A DNA stretch of 64,000 nucleotides from Deltaproteobacteria bacterium (lineage in GTDB: Bacteria; UBA10199; JACPAL01; JAHFST01). The translations under genes were made by a program, and so were the position numbers. The DNA lies in NCBI GenBank assembly GCA_023265625.1, contig JAHFST010000002.1, positions 124,001 through 188,000 of the forward strand. Direction: 5' to 3'. Under the pieces are notes generated by a model that was not told the origin of the DNA, searched no databases, and worked only from the letters and a program-made list of their open reading frames with translations. Shown here one piece after another: positions 25,569 through 37,715 of this stretch (position 1 is its first letter; the number at the start of each line of letters is the position of its first letter).

Positions 25569-26438
25569 TCACTTCGAGAGGAGCTTCGCGATTTCAGGAC
25601 GTAGTTCACCGATCACAGTTTGGAAAGGTGGAAGGTCAGGAACCAAAGGTCCCAGCCATTGCTCCCACGTTTTTTCGACGAGAGTCAGCATTTTCCCCCT
25701 GAAAAAATCCTCTTCATTTTGAAAGCTGACATTTTTTGCAGCGCATTTGACGCGCAGAAAAGCATCAAAGCCGTCGAGTTTCATCTGATCCTTGTAGGCT
25801 CCGAGTATGCGCCAGAGATCATAATAATCGCGAGCCCGTGATCGTGACCATCCCCGTGTTTCCAGTTTTTCCATGTGTTGAAGAATGGCTCGGAGCTTCT
25901 CCGCGACAATTTCTTCCAAGGCATAGACCCGAACCTGAGCATCCAGCGGCTCGCCGTACTCGTGAATGACTTTTCTCATGTTGGCAGGTTTCAAGACTTT
26001 CTCATCGACTGAAGTCTCGATAATGACCCGCGTATGCAACTCCCGATGCCACGGGAAGCGGGCGCGAATTGAGAAAGCCTCCTGTCCGCCCGGGTGCGGA
26101 TCCTTTTCCGTGTAACGCTCGCACACGATCTCCACGGGAGCATATTCATCGAGCAATTTTTTGGCGATCTCACAGGCTTGTTTTACAGCTTGTTCCATCG
26201 CAGCCCCTCGCGGTACAGCCTCCACACCCGAGAAATCCAAATCCTCCGAAAAACGGTAATCTCCGAAATAACATTTTTTGAGCGCGGTGCCGCCTTTGAA
26301 GATAAGGGTATCTCGAAACACGTCGACTCCGGCAATGCCAGCGAGAATCCACGACAGAAGGTAATCGCGCTCCAAGACTTCCCACGGAATTTTGAGACGT
26401 TTTCTGGCTTCTTGCAGACGGGTGTGCAGTGTTTTCAT
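25569..26438 (-). CDS. abiEii: AbiEii-type nucleotidyltransferase toxin
   Basis: A 289-residue protein of the AbiEii/nucleotidyltransferase toxin family. FKGGTALKKCYFG followed by RFSEDLDFS gives the GG...DxD active-site motif, and ALEEIVAEKLRAI and RARDYYDLWRI are the usual later family motifs. AbiEii toxins transfer nucleotides to RNA targets and arrest growth after infection. The ATG overlaps the AbiEi stop by 4 bases (ATGA), which selects this start over upstream codons. It is placed inside the prophage packaging genes. Confidence 0.88.
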   Translation of the reverse strand: MKTLHTRLQEARKRLKIPWEVLERDYLLSWILAGIAGVDVFRDTLIFKGGTALKKCYFGDYRFSEDLDFSGVEAVPRGAAMEQAVKQACEIAKKLLDEYAPVEIVCERYTEKDPHPGGQEAFSIRARFPWHRELHTRVIIETSVDEKVLKPANMRKVIHEYGEPLDAQVRVYALEEIVAEKLRAILQHMEKLETRGWSRSRARDYYDLWRILGAYKDQMKLDGFDAFLRVKCAAKNVSFQNEEDFFRGKMLTLVEKTWEQWLGPLVPDLPPFQTVIGELRPEIAKLLSK

Positions 26439-27253
26439 GTGGTAACCTTTCCCGGAAGATTCTCCTGAATCATCCAATAACGATTGTATGGACCCTTGAG
26501 AGGGCCACTCGAATCGAGTCTTCGGTACCCCTTGATCGGAAATTGCGCGAGTCGCTCCAAGCGATCGCGTCCTAACCCAAGGCTCTCCAAAACCCATCCG
26601 AGACGCTTGGTCGTGGCAGCATCCATCTTCAAAGCATAATCCATGATCCGCTCAAGATTTAATCGTTCTCGACTGACCTCGAACGCATGGAGGACCTCGG
26701 CAAAGTCACCGCAGTGTTGGGGCATGGTCAGTCCATCGATTAATGTCCGCTCAAGATCGGTGATCGTCACGCGGGTATCGCCAACCCAGACCTTCTCCGT
26801 GCCGAAAAATCTTTCCGGCTTGATTTGAATGAACTGATACGCCGTATCCCCAATCCGGTAGCTATCTCTTGCTCCCGTTCCTGGAACCGATGACTCCGTC
26901 GTGGTCAGCACGAAGATCGTTCTTGGAGTCTGTTCTGTTAACCCATGATGATGGAGTGCAGACCAGTGAGAAATCGCGGCCGGATCCACCAAGGCCATAG
27001 CGATCTCGAACTCATGAGCCGGCGTAACGCCTGGCACGGTCGGGGAAATCGCATAGAGTCCATTGTGCAAGCGAACCACCCAGCCGGAATTGGTCAGATG
27101 GTGCAAAACCTGCGTGATATAGCCGTTCGAAAGCCCCACTTCGGGGCCTAATTCCCGTGCCCGGGCCGTGGTAAAGATCCGGTCCCCCTGATTGGCAAGC
27201 CGACGCACCAGCTCCACCCCAGCCCCCTTATGTATTATATCCTGCTCTGACAT
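26435..27253 (-). CDS. abiEi: AbiEi-type antitoxin / transcriptional repressor
   Basis: A 272-residue protein with an N-terminal winged helix (TTARARELGPEVGLSNGYITQVLHHL, with LHNGLYAISP as the wing) and the AbiEi C-terminal region (SHWSALHHHGLTEQ, VTITDLERTLIDGLTMP). AbiEi neutralises AbiEii and represses its own operon. It has its own AT-rich promoter region just upstream, and translation of the toxin is coupled by a 4-base overlap. It is unlikely to depend on the phage late promoter. Confidence 0.88.
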   Translation of the reverse strand: MSEQDIIHKGAGVELVRRLANQGDRIFTTARARELGPEVGLSNGYITQVLHHLTNSGWVVRLHNGLYAISPTVPGVTPAHEFEIAMALVDPAAISHWSALHHHGLTEQTPRTIFVLTTTESSVPGTGARDSYRIGDTAYQFIQIKPERFFGTEKVWVGDTRVTITDLERTLIDGLTMPQHCGDFAEVLHAFEVSRERLNLERIMDYALKMDAATTKRLGWVLESLGLGRDRLERLAQFPIKGYRRLDSSGPLKGPYNRYWMIQENLPGKVTT

Positions 27254-27284
27254 TATTACCTCACAGCGAACAATCGCAATGAAC

Positions 27285-27331
27285 TATCTATTTAATGTAG
27301 ATATATTATACCGATTATTCGCCTAAGTCAA
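27285..27331 (-). promoter_or_regulatory. Promoter and candidate operator of the abiE operon
   Basis: On the minus strand TTTGAC (27332-27327) and TATAAT (27310-27305) are separated by 16 bases, a near-consensus sigma-70 promoter in an AT-rich gap. Directly downstream is the inverted repeat TATCTA / TAGATA (27285-27303), a candidate AbiEi operator since the family autorepresses through inverted repeats. The boxes are seen; function is inferred. Confidence 0.5.
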
Positions 27332-27359
27332 ACAATGTCAATGTTAAATATATTGCCGC

Positions 27360-27662
27360 TCAATTCTTGCCAGAAATCCGATCCAGATACTCCAAGGCTA
27401 TCTGGGGGTCCTCTTTGAGGGCTTTAAAGACAGTTTGTCTGGCCAAAAGCTGGGGCCGTTGTTTGAGGATTTCGCGCCGATCCTTGAAGGCCGGATGCTC
27501 CTTCAAATGCTCCTGAAAAGCCTGCAAAGTAATTCCCGCGAAACAGCAGGCCTCCGTATCGCTGCATCCGAGTGAAAAGGCATCCTCCAGACGACGAAGA
27601 CAATCCTCATCCAGCGTGTTGCTTTTCGGCGGTTCGGGCGTGGCCTCAATTTTTTTGGGCAT
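27360..27662 (-). CDS. Small terminase-like DNA-packaging protein
   Basis: A 100-residue protein with a helix-turn-helix (FSLGCSDTEACCFAGITLQAF) followed by EHLKEHPAFKDRREILKQRP and a C-terminal ALEYLDRISG. This layout is that of small terminase / phage DNA-binding proteins that recognise packaging sites. The ATG at 27662 overlaps the preceding methyltransferase by 17 bases. No large terminase follows; the next gene is AbiEi. Confidence 0.72.
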   Translation of the reverse strand: MPKKIEATPEPPKSNTLDEDCLRRLEDAFSLGCSDTEACCFAGITLQAFQEHLKEHPAFKDRREILKQRPQLLARQTVFKALKEDPQIALEYLDRISGKN

Positions 27663-28887
27663 GGATTCGCTCGGCTTTCTTTCCCGTATAATTTTCCCAG
27701 CGGGTGACGATGACATCACAATAGATCGGATCCAGTTCCACGAGCCGCGCTTTACGGCCGGTCTTTTCGCAGGCAATGAGGGTGGTACCTGAACCGCCAA
27801 AAAGATCGAGTACGATGTCGTCGCGTTTCGAGGAATTTTCAATTGTCTTGACGATCAGCTCGACCGGTTTCTGATTAGGGTGAAGAGCGCGGTCTTGTTT
27901 TTGCCCTCTGTCATCCTTTCGGCCCGCGAAGGAATTGAATGACGGAAACTCGAAGACATTGGGATGATTCTTTTGACCAAAGAATTCAGGATGCCCCTTG
28001 GCAATGTAGAGGATCGGTTCGTACTTCCAGGTGTAGTGGCCGAAGTTCATGGCCTGCACATCCTTCAGCCAGATCAGGGTATTGCGGTAATCCCAACCGG
28101 CATCCAACGCACAGGTCAGGAATTCGAGGACGTTCGCTTCGGCATAGCAGACATAAGCGGGAGCGTTGTCAGAACAATTCGCGAAAGCGTTTCGGTAAAC
28201 CTGTCCGAGAAATCCCCGAAAGTCTTTCTGGTTGTCGCCCATAATTTTTCGGCCAAAGGTATCCTCGTAATTCACATTGTACGGGGGATCGGTGAAAATC
28301 ATTCGGCCCTGTTCGCCATTCATAAAGGTTTTGAGCGATTCTTCATCCGTGCTGTCGCCGCAGTAAACGCGATGATTGCCGAGAATCCAGGTGTCGCCTG
28401 GCTCCGTGATGGCTGTCTCGGGGGCTTCGGGAACCTCGTCATCCTCGGCATCGGTAAGAAGGGTCTGCTTTTCGTAATTGATAAGATCTTTGAGTTCGTC
28501 GTAGTCAAAACCGGTCAACTCGATCGGAAATTCACCGGTATCGATATCGATGATCACGTCGCGCAGCATTTCAAGATCCCAATCTCCGTGAATCCGGTTC
28601 AGCGCCAGATTGAGGGCCTTTTCCTTGGAGAGGGGGATATCCACGACCACGACCTGCGTGCTTTGGACGCCGAGGGATTGAAGAACCTTGTAACGCTGAT
28701 GTCCGCCGACGACATGACCGGTTTGCCGATTCCAAATGATCGGCTCAACCAGTGAAAATTCCGTGATGGATTTTTTCAGGCGTTCCAGTTGTTGTTCGGA
28801 GATCTGTCTCGGATTGTATGGGGCAGGATTCAGCTCCGACAATTTCTTTTTTTCGAGAATCAGATCCGTGTTCAAATCAACGCTCAT
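27646..28887 (-). CDS. ParB-domain-fused beta-class DNA methyltransferase
   Basis: A 413-residue protein. Residues 15-100 form a ParB/sulfiredoxin-type nuclease domain (LNPAPYNPRQ, TGHVVGGHQRYKVL). Residues 165-405 are a beta-class amino-methyltransferase with DPPY at 200-203 before DLFGGSGTT at 361-369, so it methylates adenine N6 or cytosine N4. Such fusions are common in phages and probably protect the genome from host restriction. It overlaps both neighbours, so it is translated with them. Confidence 0.92.
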   Translation of the reverse strand: MSVDLNTDLILEKKKLSELNPAPYNPRQISEQQLERLKKSITEFSLVEPIIWNRQTGHVVGGHQRYKVLQSLGVQSTQVVVVDIPLSKEKALNLALNRIHGDWDLEMLRDVIIDIDTGEFPIELTGFDYDELKDLINYEKQTLLTDAEDDEVPEAPETAITEPGDTWILGNHRVYCGDSTDEESLKTFMNGEQGRMIFTDPPYNVNYEDTFGRKIMGDNQKDFRGFLGQVYRNAFANCSDNAPAYVCYAEANVLEFLTCALDAGWDYRNTLIWLKDVQAMNFGHYTWKYEPILYIAKGHPEFFGQKNHPNVFEFPSFNSFAGRKDDRGQKQDRALHPNQKPVELIVKTIENSSKRDDIVLDLFGGSGTTLIACEKTGRKARLVELDPIYCDVIVTRWENYTGKKAERIHAQKN

Positions 28888-29632
28888 AGTGTGCCTCTTT
28901 CATGATGGCTTTGCCGATCACTTCGACGACCTGCGGAACGACCGCGTTTCCGAGGCAGGTAAGCTGGTGAATCCGGTCGGGAATCCCATCAGCCACTCCA
29001 CAAATCTTGGGTGCGGATACAGGCCATCCGTCGGCCCATTGCGAAGCACCTCCCGCAGGTTGCCGCGACATTTCGGCGAACCTTTGAACCTCTCGGTAGA
29101 AGCTCCCTTGGAATCCGAGACGATCGGCGTCGGGTACCATTCTTTTGGTTGCGAAAATCCAGATCCGTTCGCGGCGGTGGGGAGCGCCCACGGCCGCCGC
29201 CGGTATGCATTCCCATTCAACATCGTACCCGAGCGCGGCCAGGTCTCTGAGAATGCATCCGAAGTACCGTCCAGATTCAGTTGAAAGAATCCCTGGCACG
29301 TTTTCAGCCAAGACCCATCGGGGCTCAAGCTCGCGAATAATTCGGGCGAATTCTTCCCAGAGATCGCGTGCATCATCGGAGCCTTTGCGCATGCCGGCGA
29401 AACTGTGGGGCTGGCACGGAAAACCTCCGCAGATAAGATCGACGGGTTCAAGGTTATGCTGGCCACATTCCCTGACATCCCGATGGCGGATGACATGGGG
29501 CCAGTGTTTTTCAAGAATCCTAGTCGCATAGTCACCGAGCTCCACTTGCCAGGCGCATTTCATTCCGGCTCTTTCGAGTCCCAGATCGAATCCGCCGATA
29601 CCGGCGAACAAAGAACCGAACGTGATCGTCAT
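28877..29632 (-). CDS. C5-cytosine DNA methyltransferase
   Basis: A 251-residue Dcm-type enzyme: motif I SLFAGIGGFDLGLERAG (7-23), motif IV GGFPCQPHS with catalytic C73, motif VI ENV (110-112), motif VIII RRERIWI (153-159) and motif X GNAVVPQVVEVIGKAI. The target-recognition region is short, which is normal for phage versions. It overlaps the next methyltransferase by 11 bases. A second frame on the same strand inside this gene also encodes a family-like protein (28918-29535). Confidence 0.93.
   Translation of the reverse strand: MTITFGSLFAGIGGFDLGLERAGMKCAWQVELGDYATRILEKHWPHVIRHRDVRECGQHNLEPVDLICGGFPCQPHSFAGMRKGSDDARDLWEEFARIIRELEPRWVLAENVPGILSTESGRYFGCILRDLAALGYDVEWECIPAAAVGAPHRRERIWIFATKRMVPDADRLGFQGSFYREVQRFAEMSRQPAGGASQWADGWPVSAPKICGVADGIPDRIHQLTCLGNAVVPQVVEVIGKAIMKEAHYER
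28918..29535 (-). CDS. Second conserved-looking protein in the +1 frame of the C5 methyltransferase gene
   Basis: A 205-codon same-strand frame lies entirely inside the methyltransferase gene. Its translation carries motifs familiar from separately annotated phage proteins: SWLKTCQGFF, FSETWPRSGTMLNGNAYRR, a WYPTPIVSD block and FVEWLMGFPTGFTSL. Two explanations fit: true overprinting, or a family known only because the methyltransferase is conserved and its other frame is translated in databases. An independent start or ribosome site is not obvious, so expression is uncertain. Confidence 0.4.
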   Translation of the reverse strand: MTMRLGFLKNTGPMSSAIGMSGNVASITLNPSILSAEVFRASPTVSPACAKAPMMHAISGKNSPELFASLSPDGSWLKTCQGFFQLNLDGTSDAFSETWPRSGTMLNGNAYRRRPWALPTAANGSGFSQPKEWYPTPIVSDSKGASTERFKGSPKCRGNLREVLRNGPTDGLYPHPRFVEWLMGFPTGFTSLPASETRSFRRSSK

Positions 29633-29785: not shown

Positions 29786-30136
29786 TCATGATTCGGCCTC
29801 CGGCTGTTTTGATTTTTGAAAATCAGGTTGGTGATACGGAAGATATTCAGGAATGCCGCGATATCTGTGCCGCCACTGGATGATGATCCGCTGGCCACAG
29901 CCGCACTGGCACAGGAGCGCGTTGTGACTCTGCTCCTCGGCCCATGCTTCGGCCTTGGTCATGAATCGCCCCGATTTTTCGCCTGATTCGTCGGTAAATT
30001 CCTTGTAGGTTAAGGGGTTGTATTCGCGGATGGTGATCCTGAAAACGGAGTAAATCTCTTTGCAGAAAGGGTTCGCGTAGTGTACAAATGGGGACGCCAA
30101 TTTATAACCGGGGCCGTGGCGGCGAGGAGCCGCCAC
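29786..30136 (-). CDS. Small protein with CQCGCG zinc motif, next to the recombinase
   Basis: A frame of up to 116 codons, with its convincing part from about residue 36 (FTDESGEKSGRFMTKAEAWA, LLCQCGCGQRI, RHRYRGIPEYLPYH). The C-C-C and H arrangement is like HNH-endonuclease or Zn-ribbon proteins in phages, but the catalytic set is not complete enough to call a nuclease. The first third overlaps the recombinase end in another frame and is read from the inverted repeat, so the start is uncertain; an ATG at 29962 is an alternative. The 150 bases after it, to 29633, hold no gene I can support. Confidence 0.55.
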   Translation of the reverse strand: MAAPRRHGPGYKLASPFVHYANPFCKEIYSVFRITIREYNPLTYKEFTDESGEKSGRFMTKAEAWAEEQSHNALLCQCGCGQRIIIQWRHRYRGIPEYLPYHQPDFQKSKQPEAES

Positions 30137-31536
30137 GGCAAACTGTAATCAAAATGCAGGGTTTTGGCCGCCAGCCGAAAGTTCGAGCCGATCTTTTTCA
30201 GGAAATCTCGCTGGGATTCTAAATTTTCACTCGCTGCCCTCTGATGGGCCTGGTGGGCCACCTCCAGGAATTCCCGACAGGGTTCGAGCCAACCCGTTGC
30301 CCCTTGCTCCAATGACTTCAAATTTTCCTCCAAATCGATCTTGTTCTTGAGCAGGGCCTCCTTTTTGGACTGAAATTGGGCCTTATCGATTAATCCCTCC
30401 AGATGGGTATCCAAAAGTCGATCCAGTTTGGTTTGAATGTCCCGGATCTGAATGGCTAGTTCGGCTTTCTTGCGGGCAATGGGTTGGCTTATCTCGTCCC
30501 GTTCCTGAGACCACGCCGCCAGCATTTTTTGATAAACCTCGGTCGGAAGAGCAACCCGGGCAACCGCGGCCCTGACCTGTTCAGCCAATCGCTCTTCACG
30601 CACGAATGGCTCCGCACATTTTCCCCGCTTCTTGGTACAACGATAATAGTGATGACCTTTTTGTCGCTCGGCCGTAATGGAACACCCACAGCTGGCGCAA
30701 ACCGCCAGGCCCAGGAGTGGAAAGTACTTTTTGTGGTATTTATTGGGTTTCCCATTTCTGACGAGACTCCGCTGGACCTGGTCAAAGAGTTCCTTCGAAA
30801 TGAGGGGCTCATGCCTTCCTTGATGGGCTTCCCCATTAAAATTCATGAGGCCATAGTAAAATATGCTCGTCAGTATTCGGTGAATTTGAGAGACCGAAAG
30901 AGGTTTCCTGGTACGACTCACCAATCCCTTGCGACCGGAAATTTTCTTAAGGTCGGGTAAGGTATATTCCCCGGTCGCATAGGACTCGAACAAATCGCGG
31001 ACGAGTGGTCCTTTGATCGAATCGATGACAAGTTTTTTCGATGTATCATCACTGGCATATCCAATCGGTGGGAATGAGGGCCATTCACCACGACGAAGTT
31101 TCTGCCGCTGCCCCCGCTTCACATTCTCCGAAAGGTTATCAATAAAATATTTGGACTGGCCGAAGGCAATGTTCATCATAAACTTCCCCTGAGGGGTGTT
31201 CTCGAACCAAAAGGTGGGGAACTTGAGTTGCTGGATTTGTCGAGTATCCAGGAGATAGATGATCCGGCCGCCATCCACGGAATTTCGGGCCAACCGATCG
31301 GGATGCCAAGCGACGATCCCGTCAGCTTCTCCCCGTTCAATCCTAGTAATCATCTCATTAAAAATGGGGCGGCCGGGGGTTTTGGCAGTCATTGCCTCGA
31401 TAAACTCTTGCTTGATGGTCAATTTCTCCCGTTGAGCAAAGATACGAAGCTCGGTCAGTTGGGCCTCGATGGAGAGGATCTGCTTCTCCTCGGTATCAGT
31501 TGATTTTCGGGCATAGAGAAATAAAGAGTTGAGCAT
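30010..31536 (-). CDS. Large serine recombinase / integrase
   Basis: A 508-residue serine recombinase. Catalytic S12 is in YARKSTD, resolvase motif HPDRLARNS at 78-86, a recombinase domain covers about 150-260, the Zn ribbon uses C280, C283, C300 and C307, and a coiled coil follows to about 440. It would integrate, excise or invert the element. Residues about 448-482 are encoded by the left copy of a 95-bp inverted repeat, and the last 27 residues run into unrelated sequence, so the present C-terminus may not be the native one. Confidence 0.9.
   Translation of the reverse strand: MLNSLFLYARKSTDTEEKQILSIEAQLTELRIFAQREKLTIKQEFIEAMTAKTPGRPIFNEMITRIERGEADGIVAWHPDRLARNSVDGGRIIYLLDTRQIQQLKFPTFWFENTPQGKFMMNIAFGQSKYFIDNLSENVKRGQRQKLRRGEWPSFPPIGYASDDTSKKLVIDSIKGPLVRDLFESYATGEYTLPDLKKISGRKGLVSRTRKPLSVSQIHRILTSIFYYGLMNFNGEAHQGRHEPLISKELFDQVQRSLVRNGKPNKYHKKYFPLLGLAVCASCGCSITAERQKGHHYYRCTKKRGKCAEPFVREERLAEQVRAAVARVALPTEVYQKMLAAWSQERDEISQPIARKKAELAIQIRDIQTKLDRLLDTHLEGLIDKAQFQSKKEALLKNKIDLEENLKSLEQGATGWLEPCREFLEVAHQAHQRAASENLESQRDFLKKIGSNFRLAAKTLHFDYSLPWRLLAATAPVINWRPHLYTTRTLSAKRFTPFSGSPSANTTP
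30090..30184. repeat. Left arm of a 95-bp perfect inverted repeat around the recombinase
   Basis: The 95 bases match the reverse complement of 31706-31800 with no mismatch. This arm lies inside the recombinase gene and encodes its C-terminal stretch (NFRLAAKTLHFDY to VINWRP). It also contains a smaller palindromic stem, GCCGTGGCGGC / GCCGCCACGGC. Confidence 0.95.
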
Positions 31537-31639
31537 GTGGTCTCCCTTTTTCTTGGAATAGTGCCAGACCTGTTCGGCCCGTCTAGAAATACTTTTAGCT
31601 AAAATTTAGAATCCCAAATGGAGACAGTGGGATCGGCTC

Positions 31640-31700
31640 CCCCTGTACCGTACGGTACAGGGGCAAAGGTCCCGTAGGGACCTTACCATCCCGAAGGGAT
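31640..31700. promoter_or_regulatory. Three consecutive palindromes upstream of the recombinase
   Basis: The first is a perfect 24-bp palindrome (CCCCTGTACCGT and its complement, 31640-31663). The second is AAGGTCCC GTA GGGACCTT (31666-31684) and the third is ATCCC GAA GGGAT (31688-31700). They lie between the recombinase start (31536) and the right 95-bp arm (31706). They could be recombinase binding or crossover sites, or operators of the recombinase promoter. Confidence 0.6.
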
Positions 31701-31705
31701 CTTTG

Positions 31706-31800
31706 GAACTTTCGGCTGGCGGCCAAAACCCTGCATTTTGATTACAGTTTGCCGTGGCGGCTCCTCGCCGCCACGGCCCCGGTTATAAATTGGCGTCCCC
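31706..31800. repeat. Right arm of the 95-bp perfect inverted repeat
   Basis: This is the perfect reverse-complement copy of 30090-30184, located upstream of the recombinase. Read on the plus strand it encodes the same recombinase C-terminal residues and continues past the repeat for 12 codons (PPWEQIRVYFHD) to a TAA at 31833-31835, so it looks like the 3' end of a recombinase gene in opposite orientation. This makes the segment between the arms a candidate invertible unit. Confidence 0.95.
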
Positions 31801-31835
31801 CCTGGGAACAGATTCGAGTTTACTTCCACGATTAA

Positions 31836-32661
31836 TTCTATAGCGAGCCGGCGCAACTCGGGCCTGGCGAGCTGATTTCAACGTCAATGGGCCAATCCAA
31901 CACCTGAACCGACATCCCACCGACTCCCGGACTTAATGGCGGTCGTTTCAACGTAACGTAACTTGGGTGGCGCTGATGTGTCGCTTCAGGCTAACGTGGC
32001 TTGGGTGGCTGTCTGAGTCGGCAAAAGCCGCGCCGTCCTACCGGCCGTCACGCCTTTTGCACCCCCGTGGTCTCCGGATGCGCCGCAACCCGCGCGCCCC
32101 TGCTTCGCTAAAGCTACGCAGGGTCACGCGGCTTGCCACGTCCGCCTCCGGCGGGGGCCTTCCCGACGACTCAGCAAGTGGCATCATAAGGCCCGGGCCA
32201 CCTTTAAACACCCGCATCAAACACCGCCCGGGCCGTGCCAGCGGGATTGACTTGTGCCCTTGGGCACGAGTCAAACTGCACGGTAGTTAACTGTGTGTGA
32301 TTCATTCAAGACAGAAATTACCAGTTTTTAGGGTCTCAGAATGGGTGTCGGTTTCGAGTGCTTTGCAATTGCTTTTATAAGAACCTGAATAAGATAAAGC
32401 CCTGACCCTTTGCAACCTTTGCCTTTTATACGACGAGCGTAGATTACATCCCAAACATGGAAATATCCCAGCAGTTTTTTGCCACCGTTCAGAAAAAATT
32501 GCTATCACCCATTTTTGACCCCATTTTCCATTTTCATGGTCAGTAGCATCCTTTTCTCCTGTTCTTAAAACAGGACCACTACTGACATAATCACTCGGCT
32601 GTTAGGCTGACACATTCATTCGGCTACAACAGCTTCCGATTTTCAATTTTCAATTTTCGCG
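31836..32661. other. Non-coding stretch with a sharp composition change
   Basis: No gene is supported here. About 31836-32280 is GC-rich with many short palindromes, including a strong stem TTGACTTGTGCCC / GGGCACGAGTCAA (32247-32274) and two GCCCGGGC words. About 32290-32661 is AT-rich and contains a nested hairpin at 32539-32586 (GTCAGTAG/CTACTGAC outside, CCTGTT/AACAGG inside). Short frames on both strands of the GC-rich part look like composition artefacts. It marks the boundary between the prophage and the island. Confidence 0.6.
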
Positions 32662-33998: not shown

Positions 33999-34512
33999 TC
34001 AATGTAGGAGGGATTTTAGATTATTGGTGATTTTCTCGATTGGAAACACACATTTTCTGGTTCCGGCGAGCCAAGGAGTCCGGTTAATTTCTTTGGTTAG
34101 TCCCACGATACTGACGTGTTCCCAACCTCCCCGGCTCTCAACGTGATACCGTATATGATTGATCGCCTCATTGATGATCCCCAACACTTGGCGATCATGG
34201 GTTTTACCATAATGAATTTGTCCATCTGTTAGGAATTCCAAATGATGATCCTGAAATCCATCGCTTCTCAGGGACAAGGACAACGTGGAGAGGAACTCGC
34301 CTGCGAAGTCTTCCAATTGATTCTTTTTCATCCACGGCATAATGATAGCATAGAAAGTCTGATCGCTTATCTCAATGAGCGTTTTTCTGTGTGTTGCTGT
34401 GCGCGATATTAACGATGTGGGCGTGCCACGCAAGGCGTCAACTTGAAGCATCAAGATCGGCCGCTGAAAAGCCCAACTGTTCGATCATTTTTTTGGTGCA
34501 ATGGAGATGGAT
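33999..34512 (-). pseudogene. Broken DUF6933-like gene
   Basis: The remnant reads IHLHCTKKMIEQLGFSAADL in one frame directly after the SIR2-like gene, hits an in-frame TGA, continues as RLAWHAHIVNIAHS, then changes frame to THRKTLIEISDQTFYAII and runs to VLGIINEAINHIRYH and EINRTP...PIEKI. These pieces fit the order of a DUF6933-type protein. There is no start codon, at least one nonsense change and one frameshift. The longest intact frame (34454-33999) is therefore only the second part. Confidence 0.6.
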
Positions 34513-34520
34513 TTTTCAGG

Positions 34521-35795
34521 CTAAGGGTCGCTAAGACTATTTATCGCGTCTAAGCTAAATCCTTGATGAACCTTCTTCATTCTTTTGGGCTGAAATAACG
34601 CTTCCATCCTGTCAAAGTAGCCGTCATTTTGTGACGGCTTTTTATCGATTACAATGAGCTCTTCCAATTGATGTTGTGGAGATCGTCGTAAGATTCTTGA
34701 TCTGATTGCATTGAAATGATCCGTGTCCGTTGGCGGCAAGCTCCACCCTATAATAATTACCTGTTTCGTATTTGAGTTTTCTAATGCATCCAGAAACGTC
34801 CGTTCGGCCTCATATAGAATGGGATAGGATTTCACCTTGATTGACGTTGGAGGAACGATAAGTGGTTCAACGCGCGGGAACCTGGTACTTCCTTCAAAAT
34901 CTATAATCCTTGCATCACCTAGGCTTGGAAATGCACTAAAACGATTCTGAACATTAACCAATAGGCACGTTTCCTTCGCTTCGTCATTTTCTCTTCGCTT
35001 GCAAAAAGACAGTGAGCCATGCGGCTTCAATAATCTTAGCCTTGATAGCCCTCCGGTTGCATTTTTTCCTATTTCTTCACAGTTCGGAGGATCAGGGAAC
35101 GACCCGTTGATCCTATCAAAATCAGGAATTTGAGATGGGTCTAATTTCCCTTTAAATGCATCTTGCCTTGTCAATATTTGCTTAAGATCGGCATCGGCAA
35201 TTTGTTTATTCAGAGAAACCACCCAGTTTAGGAGGGCGTTGTCAGCAATAATGTCATAGTTGAAAGAGACAATTGTAGAAACGAATTGCTCACCTATAAA
35301 GCGGTCAAATAGCTTTCCAAATAATTCGTCGGCCTTGTTTTGGTGTTCTTGGGAAATAGGTCCCAAGAGCCAATTGATCATGAATAATATAGCCGAATAC
35401 GCATCAGGCTTCTTCTGGGTAAGACATTGATCCAAGACCCTTTCAAGATTTTCGTTTGCACCATCAAATCGTGATTGGAGGACAGAGAGATACTCATCGC
35501 GAACGACCTCAATTACTTTGGCATGATTATCCTTGTCCTTAAGACCAATAAGCGTCCTATATTGTAAAGCCAGGTTCTCGCATGTGGAATTTATTGTAAG
35601 AAATGCTCGATCGTCATCAAGGGTGGAGAAAAGCGTTGCCACTAGACTCTTGTCATCATTATTCTGCGCATTCTTCAGGGCTGCAGTGAAAAAACAGTCC
35701 ATTGTAGCAAAGCGATCGGAATCGATGGACGCAGATGCTCCTGCACCCAGAACAATTATTTTCATGCACCACGTGGAACAATCTGCCTCTGTCAT
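34521..35795 (-). CDS. SIR2-like domain protein, candidate NAD-targeting defence factor
   Basis: A 424-residue protein. IIVLGAGASASID near the N-terminus is the Rossmann NAD-binding loop, VSFNYDIIADNAL and LLKPHGSLSF are the Asn- and His-containing motifs of SIR2_2-type proteins, and VIIIGWSLPPTDTDHF follows. Such proteins occur in anti-phage systems that deplete NAD. The ATG at 35795 has GGGAGAG upstream and follows an HsdS stop by 4 bases; a second ATG at 35765 is an alternative. The gene therefore once sat in a type I restriction operon. Confidence 0.78.
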   Translation of the reverse strand: MTEADCSTWCMKIIVLGAGASASIDSDRFATMDCFFTAALKNAQNNDDKSLVATLFSTLDDDRAFLTINSTCENLALQYRTLIGLKDKDNHAKVIEVVRDEYLSVLQSRFDGANENLERVLDQCLTQKKPDAYSAILFMINWLLGPISQEHQNKADELFGKLFDRFIGEQFVSTIVSFNYDIIADNALLNWVVSLNKQIADADLKQILTRQDAFKGKLDPSQIPDFDRINGSFPDPPNCEEIGKNATGGLSRLRLLKPHGSLSFCKRRENDEAKETCLLVNVQNRFSAFPSLGDARIIDFEGSTRFPRVEPLIVPPTSIKVKSYPILYEAERTFLDALENSNTKQVIIIGWSLPPTDTDHFNAIRSRILRRSPQHQLEELIVIDKKPSQNDGYFDRMEALFQPKRMKKVHQGFSLDAINSLSDP

Positions 35796-35799
35796 AAAT

Positions 35800-35943
35800 T
35801 CACAACTCTCCCTCAATCGCCCGGTGTAAAAGCGAATTGAAAAGATCATCCAACCATTGGCAACTGGTGGCCTGCTCGGCTTCCAAAGAGCGGATTTCAA
35901 CAACTCGGATGGCAAACTCTCTTTGTATAATGGTGTCAGACAC
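35800..35943 (-). pseudogene. hsdS: C-terminal fragment of a type I restriction specificity subunit
   Basis: A 47-codon piece beginning VSDTIIQREFAIRVVEIRSL and ending CQWLDDLFNSLLHRAIEGEL then TGA matches the conserved C-terminal helix of HsdS proteins. An in-frame stop lies four codons upstream of its first codon, so the rest of hsdS is missing, and no hsdM or hsdR is present. The SIR2-like gene starts 4 bases after its stop. Confidence 0.7.
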
Positions 35944-36073
35944 GCCTCCAACCTACGAAAATATTTAGGGCATGTCCAGCTCAAGAGAATCCAGAATCGT
36001 CATTTTCTTTAATAGTAGATAGGGTCAAGTATTGACGGCGTGTTGCTCAAACCCATTTTTCAAAGTAAGTCTT

Positions 36074-36540
36074 CTAGAAGGCGAGCCTCCAACCATCGCT
36101 TAGACTGAGAATGATATTTACGAACTGGAGAAACGTTTTTGAGCAAGAGCCGAGGGTGAGCTGAGGTACAGAGCAGTATCCTATGTCCCGAGGGGAATTG
36201 GTGCCGTGATCAATGAGAATCTTCATGTTTTGGACAGCTGCCGTCAGATAATCCTGGATCTGGACCGGCCAGATCCTTCTCCACCTTGACTGTTTGAATC
36301 CGTATCTGGTTGACCGGGCAAAGGATCTCTCCATGAGATGTTGGCGCACAAAGATATCTCGGCGAGACCGCCAGGATCTGCCTGATGTCTCATGGCAGCG
36401 ATCTCCTCCTGCCTCAAATGTCGCAGGATGGTTCGCCTGTTTTCGACGTCGTACACTGTGATTTAAGAGGACAAGCCTGACAGCTCATCTTTGATGCTGC
36501 ATAATCAACGGAGTCACGCCCTTTATGCGAAGATTTTCTT
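36074..36540 (-). pseudogene. Remnant of an IS1182-type transposase
   Basis: Pieces of a DDE transposase C-terminus appear in three frames of the minus strand: SCQACPLKSQCTTSKTGE, then RRTILRHLRQEEIAAMRHQ, then FVRQHLMERSFARSTRYGFK with RIWPVQIQDYLTAAVQNMKI. This order matches transposases of the IS1182 / DUF772 group. At least two frameshifts separate the pieces and the N-terminal half is missing. Confidence 0.65.
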
Positions 36541-36932
36541 CTCAGAACCTCTCCCGCAGGCCTTGCCCCTTTCTCACAATACTATTCAGATTAAAGATTT
36601 GGACAAATCAGAGATTGAAAAATGCTTGTAATTCAGTATGGTAACTAGCTTTCCAACTAATCGTCGGGGCGGGTTTGGGGCTCTACAAAATTTGAGCATC
36701 TCAATTGATTGGGAGATATAAAATTGAAGACGGAGGTTTTTAAAAAATTGCCGAACTCCATGGCTTCCGGGGTTTCATCCGGGGATTTAGCGGGCGGATT
36801 ATGGTTGTGAGGATCGAATTTTTGGCGTTGCTTGGGGTGACAAATAGTCTGGTGAGAAGAAAGAGATTCCAATTGGCGAGATTGGAACACACCCATCCTG
36901 ACAGATTAGTCTTAATCTGAGGATAAATGGGG
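36541..36932. other. Intergenic stretch, nothing recognised
   Basis: I see no supported gene or strong structure here. Short minus-strand frames exist but lack any recognisable motif or ribosome site. Confidence 0.5.
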
Positions 36933-37637
36933 TTAGGTCCCAAACCTTTCGCGATATTTCTGTTTCCAGGCGAGGAATTTTAGTTGATGGGACCTGCGTA
37001 AGATGTGAGTTTTGTGGATGACCCAATCAGGATTACCGATGAAAGGGGAAGAGGAGTAGGGTTGTTTTGTTTTCCAGTCATTTTGTAGGAGTTGATCAAC
37101 GAGGGCGCGGTATTCGGCCTGTCGTTGTTCTGGGGTAGATGCGAGTGTGAGGTAAGAGGGCGCAGGGGTAATGAGGGGGTCATTTTCTCCATAGGCGTAG
37201 TGGCGGTAGGAAGAGAAGGTGTTATGGTTGGGATGATGAACCTTTCCCGCGCGTTTTGGGTTGAGATCGATGTAGCGCATGACTTCTAAGAGGTGTTTAT
37301 CGGATTGAATCATAGGGGATTTGAAACGGTCCATGACAACTTGACCCTGTCTTTTGACGTGTTTGTTGTAGAGTCTAGCAAAGCGAGCGTTGACGACCCG
37401 GAAGAAGTCGGAGAAGTCACGGAGTGAGGAGAGGTGACCTGAGAGGTGAGGGTGGTTGTCCATGAGACAATAGGAGTATATTTGGATGCCGTAACGATTT
37501 TTGTAATGGAGTAGGAGGTTGTAATAGAGTTGTTTGGCCCAGGATTCTTTCAGTAACCAATCTTTGTTATGACATTGCCAAGTGACGTGGAAGCAGGAGT
37601 CGTCTTCAAGGATAGCGGAGCGAGGGAGCGATGCCAT
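36933..37637 (-). CDS. REP-associated tyrosine transposase (RAYT / Y1_Tnp)
   Basis: A protein of about 234 residues of the Y1 transposase superfamily. It has an early VTWQCHNKDW strand, the HUH-type metal site in YCLMDNHPHL, an FFRVVNARFARLYNKH region, and YIDLNPKRAG with the candidate catalytic tyrosine. RAYTs process single-stranded palindromes. A start at 37637 is preferred to 37688 because the family begins with a MASLPR-like segment. A 50-bp palindrome-bearing repeat lies 79 bases upstream. Confidence 0.85.
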   Translation of the reverse strand: MASLPRSAILEDDSCFHVTWQCHNKDWLLKESWAKQLYYNLLLHYKNRYGIQIYSYCLMDNHPHLSGHLSSLRDFSDFFRVVNARFARLYNKHVKRQGQVVMDRFKSPMIQSDKHLLEVMRYIDLNPKRAGKVHHPNHNTFSSYRHYAYGENDPLITPAPSYLTLASTPEQRQAEYRALVDQLLQNDWKTKQPYSSSPFIGNPDWVIHKTHILRRSHQLKFLAWKQKYRERFGT

Positions 37638-37715
37638 GGGCCAGACTAGAGCAAATTCCGGGCCAAATACTGTAGGACGAGAAATCAAGGGGTTAGCGTG
37701 ACAAGACGGAGTTAG

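Follow-up and report, generated by a model that had tools for sequence, protein, structure and literature searches.

The recombinase gene and the inverted repeats around it in the window (the whole 64,000-nucleotide stretch of DNA analysed here) probably constitute the module by which a small tRNA-targeting element integrates (probability about 0.8); in this module the gene for a large serine recombinase (LSR) shares sequence with its own attP and is accompanied by a second, inverted attP (attP2). In the proposed mechanism the final ~30 codons of the LSR gene would constitute the P half-site and the core, and integration at a tRNA 3' end would exchange the native tail (P', ...IRxxF...stop) for codons of the tRNA antisense strand. 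The attP2 would repeat the gene 3' end and attP in inverted and altered form immediately 5' of the start codon, and the observed inverted repeats would correspond to the gene-end arm and the attP2 arm. The element in the window presumably integrated at a tRNA-Glu, and a later prophage with another LSR would have entered the same junction and moved the tRNA by 58 kb.

The two arms are reverse complements of each other at 95 of 95 nt and are separated by 1521 nt (Table 1), a match far above chance (blastn E = 2e-45 within a 4.5-kb stretch). The open reading frame sited between them encodes an LSR with Resolvase, Recombinase and Zn_ribbon_recom domains, each above the Pfam cut-off. The earlier note had described 95-bp perfect inverted repeats flanking a serine recombinase, and the alignment and the domain matches bear this out. 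Translation also agrees with its account of the coding content, as the left arm comprises the C-terminal codons of the LSR and those residues are encoded again on the plus strand by the right arm, which continues with ...NWRPPWEQIRVYFHD* to a stop. The inverted match exceeds 95 bp, since a block of 16 nt and a second one of 9 nt (GATCGGCTC) are kept in inverted order with hairpin insertions between them. A near copy of the 24-nt palindrome listed among these insertions was observed at C6:207248-207273.

Table 1. Coordinates of the predicted integration module and the adjoining putative prophage end in the window.
Feature	Position	Strand	Remarks
LSR open reading frame as now read	30010..31536	-	the element's own coding would stop at core 30090-30100; remainder from the prophage end
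Right end (attR) of the putative prophage with its P' half-site (ATTTGTACACTACGCGAACCC...)	30050..30089	-	
Arm 1: gene 3' end, P half-site and core of former attL	30090..30184	-	
Core TTGGCGTCCCC, CCA end and acceptor strand of tRNA-Glu	30090..30100	-	
GCGTCCCC within core TTGGCGTCCCC, doubling as prophage crossover core	within 30090..30100	-	
Conserved motif GATCGGCTCGAAC (KIGSN codons)	30181..30193	-	arm starts mid-motif, between GGCTC and GAAC
Block B2	30185..30193	-	counterpart 31631-31639
Block B1	30212..30227	-	counterpart 31601-31616
Block B1 in attP2, the inverted upstream copy	31601..31616	+	
Block B2 of the upstream copy	31631..31639	+	
Hairpin insertions separating GGCTC from GAAC	31640..31705	+	nested hairpins 31664-31705
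24-nt perfect palindrome CCCCTGTACCGTACGGTACAGGGG	31640-31663		within the hairpin insertions
Arm 2: P half-site and core of attP2	31706..31800	+	
P' half-site of attP2, native C-terminal stop	31801..31830	+	ATTCGAG motif, its distance to the core 5 bp greater than in tRNA-Glu
P' spacer	31831..32274	+	~91% identity to the C30 and C5 copies

A scan of 84,980 species genomes yielded 80 relatives that were kept (48-69% protein identity), the majority of them from Patescibacteria and the others from Bdellovibrio-like, deltaproteobacterial, Omnitrophota and further bacteria. Arms of at least 40 bp flank the LSR gene in 69 of these 80 relatives (67 of 82 loci in an earlier count), and several of the 11 relatives without a flanking repeat end in an arm or contain N. 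Two further copies are located on contigs C5 and C30 of the source genome, and relatives elsewhere carry inverted copies of their C-terminal codons 5' of the gene. Self-comparison detected gene-flanking inverted repeats in nearly all closer relatives and none in the distant LSRs L040-L047. All 83 ingroup proteins formed one clade against the distant LSRs with modest support (0.71). No close relatives were found in viral contigs, where two proteins of ~30% identity lacked the repeat.

Several members and distant homologues showed further peculiarities. The distant LSRs L040, L041, L043, L046 and L146, which lack the inverted copy, have ends that read as tRNA-like antisense and retain TCGAAC ("SN") codons ~100 bp upstream. 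The C5 copy (L017, C5:65791-68088) has the P' spacer on both sides and a deletion of the gene's arm, and an extra copy of core, P' and spacer is located 12 kb away (C5:53394-53667). The recombinase L018/L024 (G000:C30:137434-138993) contains the C-terminal module with the KIGSN arm twice in tandem before a tRNA-His, the inner core being followed by the GGCTCGAAC of the next module, as if repeated integration lengthened the C-termini.

The surroundings of the arms are consistent with attachment sites. Among the 69 loci with at least 150 bp of sequence past the gene, a tRNA 3' end abuts the arm at the gene 3' end in 54, the target tRNAs being Gln (24), Ser (15), Asn (5) and others. The target tRNA of one locus harbours a group I intron (L143:7507-7843, Rfam RF00028), and three further loci (L083, L106, L131) resemble this case as judged by eye. 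The common core starts with TGG, the complement of the tRNA CCA end. Past the upstream arm the identical core is followed by a different sequence bearing a YYCGAAC motif, and the distance between the core and the CGAAC of this P' motif exceeds that of the T-loop YYCGAAC in the tRNA by exactly 5 bp in all 35 scorable loci. This shift matches the published LSR rule, according to which the zinc-ribbon motif is shifted by 5 bp between attP and attB (LI; PMC3783163), and thus identifies the 3' site as attL (P.core.B') and the upstream site as an inverted attP (P.core.P'). The two sites are therefore not equivalent, the 3' site reading P.core.tRNA and the 5' site P.core.P'. On the P side the inverted motif of the textbook symmetric attP is absent.

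Furthermore, an attR (core.P' in the opposite orientation) was detected in seven loci, 1.3-5.9 kb further out. The six comparable attR sites have P' and most of the spacer in common with attP2 and diverge thereafter. The cargo between the sites in L087 comprises a cytosine methylase and an NgoPII-type nuclease, and according to the assemblies L090 and L139 contain tandem elements joined by a rebuilt attP. The earlier note was right to treat the arms as recombination sites of its recombinase; they consist of the P half-site and the core. The LSR, the att logic and the tRNA targeting are of known kinds, and recombination presumably proceeds as in other LSRs.

The same note had interpreted the segment as a candidate self-inverting switch, in which the recombinase inverts the arm-flanked segment that carries its gene and thereby alters its C-terminus and promoter context. 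The gene is indeed flanked by identical inverted arms, and a tRNA on the 5' side of the gene was found in L100 and L109. Free exchange between the arms would predict a tRNA on the 5' side in about half of the loci, whereas the flipped arrangement, sought in the related genomes, occurred in 2 of 57 loci as opposed to 54 canonical ones. Moreover, the contig of L100 stops inside the other arm, which makes its assembly ambiguous, and L109 is a chimera of Trp-type and Ser-type parts. The orientation thus appears nearly fixed. Taking furthermore into account that attP and attL are not expected to form a productive pair in the published LSR model (PMC3783163), and that site-specific crossover at the core would leave the arms un-homogenised, self-inversion is not supported and seems very improbable. 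The suggested switch of the C-terminus holds insofar as the tail depends on the DNA past the arm, but its cause would be integration at the tRNA rather than inversion. A transposon with terminal inverted repeats was also rejected, since the arm ends are att cores and the outer flanks differ, one being a tRNA and the other P'.

No tRNA was found within the window. At C6:95878-95885 the tRNA-Glu 3' end GGGGACGC continues into TTCGTACACTGGCGCGAACCC and then into another LSR gene (-), and at window position 30090 ATTTGTACACTACGCGAACCC comes after the core GCGTCCCC. The TTCGTACACTGGCGCGAACCC and ATTTGTACACTACGCGAACCC sides are the half-sites of a single attP, inverted relative to each other on either side of the core GCGTCCCC, which indicates a prophage of ~58 kb (C6:95886-154097) ending at the 3' arm of the recombinase. 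Joining the flanks in silico restored the tRNA-Glu with its CCA directly against the arm, and after this removal of the prophage the motif spacing in the window (18 vs 23 nt) was canonical. The element in the window can therefore be regarded as a normal member in normal orientation. Its original place was probably at the tRNA-Glu; a prophage that encodes an LSR of its own would have inserted later, leaving the tRNA 58 kb off. Judged from the sequences, the att anatomy, the +5 spacing, the attR sites, the nearly fixed orientation and the restoration of the tRNA are evident.

Contrary to the earlier note, which placed the recombinase in the context of a phage operon, the gene lies outside that operon, as the prophage ends at 30089/30097 and would have been inserted later beside it. 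No attR of the element was found in C6:64001-228000, and the element may be a remnant.

The prophage shows features of its own. Its integrase is a second, distant LSR at C6:95847-97700 (L148:11847-13700), and its attP half-sites and core are legible from both ends, the tRNA-Glu and window positions 30050-30097. The prophage end is 97% identical over 273 bp in L057/L152 (G018:C24:9425), whose genome belongs to another bacterial family, and this identity points to a recent transfer of this phage type. Contig 24 of that genome was considered as an empty site of the element in the window and rejected, because it carries the attR of a related prophage instead. Inside the prophage (window 25569-29632) an AbiEi/AbiEii-like pair is encoded together with N6 and C5 methyltransferases. 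Possible cargo of the element itself (window 33999-37688) includes genes for a DUF6933 protein, an AbiH-like protein (weak, below the cut-off) and a Y1 transposase-like gene.

The structure of attP2 differs between the target types. In non-Ser types, for which 13 segments were parsed, hairpins are inserted in or beside the GGCTC/GAAC motif. In Ser, Leu and Trp types the motif is displaced behind the P' spacer and a stem of 17-33 bp closes the module. The sequence of these closing stems varies between loci and their pairing is kept, with 556 of 569 positions being Watson-Crick. Both layouts may represent circular permutations of a single design, with a stem that would protrude where two stretches matching the gene 3' end meet. 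Compared with shuffled sequences attP2 folds more stably, with a mean z-score of about -6 in 25 Ser-type and about -3 in 21 other loci, on both strands. As to the transcribed strand, wobble pairs numbered 5 vs 2, and folding energies and z-scores disagree. No match of attP2 to any Rfam family was obtained, and a known ncRNA was rejected as its identity on this ground.

The short blocks of attP2 match the gene of their own locus over 14.8 nt on average and the genes of other loci over 7.4 nt, the own-gene match being higher in 47 of 67 loci; random other loci rather than the nearest relatives served as the comparison set. Ser-type loci mostly have no blocks. A non-functional inverted duplication whose identity is maintained by gene conversion would agree with the arms, which are often 100% identical inside one locus and yet different between loci, and gene conversion could indeed account for the identical long arms. 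Such a duplication is highly improbable as the whole explanation, however, since the repeat occurs in 69 of 80 loci across many phyla and the short blocks match their own gene despite the unrelated hairpins between them. The simple inverted duplication that had been offered as the alternative to a switch thus fails, because the copy occurs family-wide, has structure and follows the sequence of its own gene. In terms of its sequence the upstream copy is no plain duplication, being split by hairpins and still matching its own gene in the short blocks.

Among the possible roles of attP2 we favour one at the nucleic-acid level, followed by a protein-bound operator or spare site and then by fold-back of single-stranded DNA. 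Tentatively, attP2 may act as a structured leader or as an RNA pairing with the gene 3' end or attP1 and thereby control the integrase. The block matches to the gene of the same locus, the preserved pairing of the closing stems and the stable folding speak for such a role. A more far-reaching version, in which this structured nucleic acid (leader RNA, ncRNA or folded ssDNA) would pair with the gene 3' end or attP and be needed for control of the LSR or even for the choice of site, seems unlikely. It is possible, though rather doubtful, that attP2 serves as an operator or decoy in DNA form, with the integrase binding it near its own promoter, repressing itself or looping to attL. The P, core and P' beside the start codon would suit such a role, and the matching blocks could be protein-binding sites common to the two places. 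An operator or decoy alone, however, leaves the variable but paired closing stems and the permuted layout unexplained.

As a spare attachment site, attP2 would be a working second attP that allows integration in the other orientation, for which the tRNA joined to the upstream arm in L100 and L109 could be taken as evidence. These are just 2 of 57 loci, and attP2 mostly has the GGCTCGAAC motif interrupted or displaced, making this role decidedly unlikely. In the phage CTXphi the inverted copies attP1 and attP2, ~90 bp apart, provide a XerCD substrate folded from ssDNA (PMC3089051). With this precedent, and given inverted attP copies with hairpin bulges, the copies could anneal in ssDNA to a duplex attP. 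The lack of any sign of an ssDNA stage and the permuted Ser-type layout, which does not nest, render such folding very unlikely. Two inverted att copies per element occur in both CTXphi and the present family, where an LSR gene lies between the copies.

The integrase resembles those of the phage type (LI/A118, phiC31, Bxb1) in its domain architecture, the 5-bp motif shift between attP and attB and the attL/attR logic (PMC3783163). In contrast to these systems, attP is located inside the 3' end of the integrase gene, its P side is asymmetric, tRNA 3' ends serve as the target and a second, inverted attP is present upstream. Archaeal integrases of the SSV type are tyrosine recombinases whose gene carries attP and is split on integration, and integration into the tRNA alters the end of the reading frame. 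The latter applies to the present family as well, where only the tail is exchanged. Invertible segments of the Hin type comprise a small invertase and short sites and are found in both orientations. They share with the present family the location of the recombinase gene between inverted sites; here, however, the orientation is nearly fixed. In the open-access literature searched, neither an attP overlapping the integrase 3' end in this family nor a conserved inverted, structured attP copy was described, and tRNA is unmentioned in the main text of a survey of thousands of LSRs (PMC10083194).

The findings describe a family of small elements that target tRNAs and are widespread in Patescibacteria and other phyla, some of these elements carrying restriction-modification genes. 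The integrase of this family would exchange its own C-terminus upon integration, and an inverted, structured second attP is conserved. Serine integrases are widely used tools in genome engineering, and we know of no control layer based on base pairing in them. If attP2 does control the integrase by base pairing, this would represent an extra regulatory layer for serine integrases.
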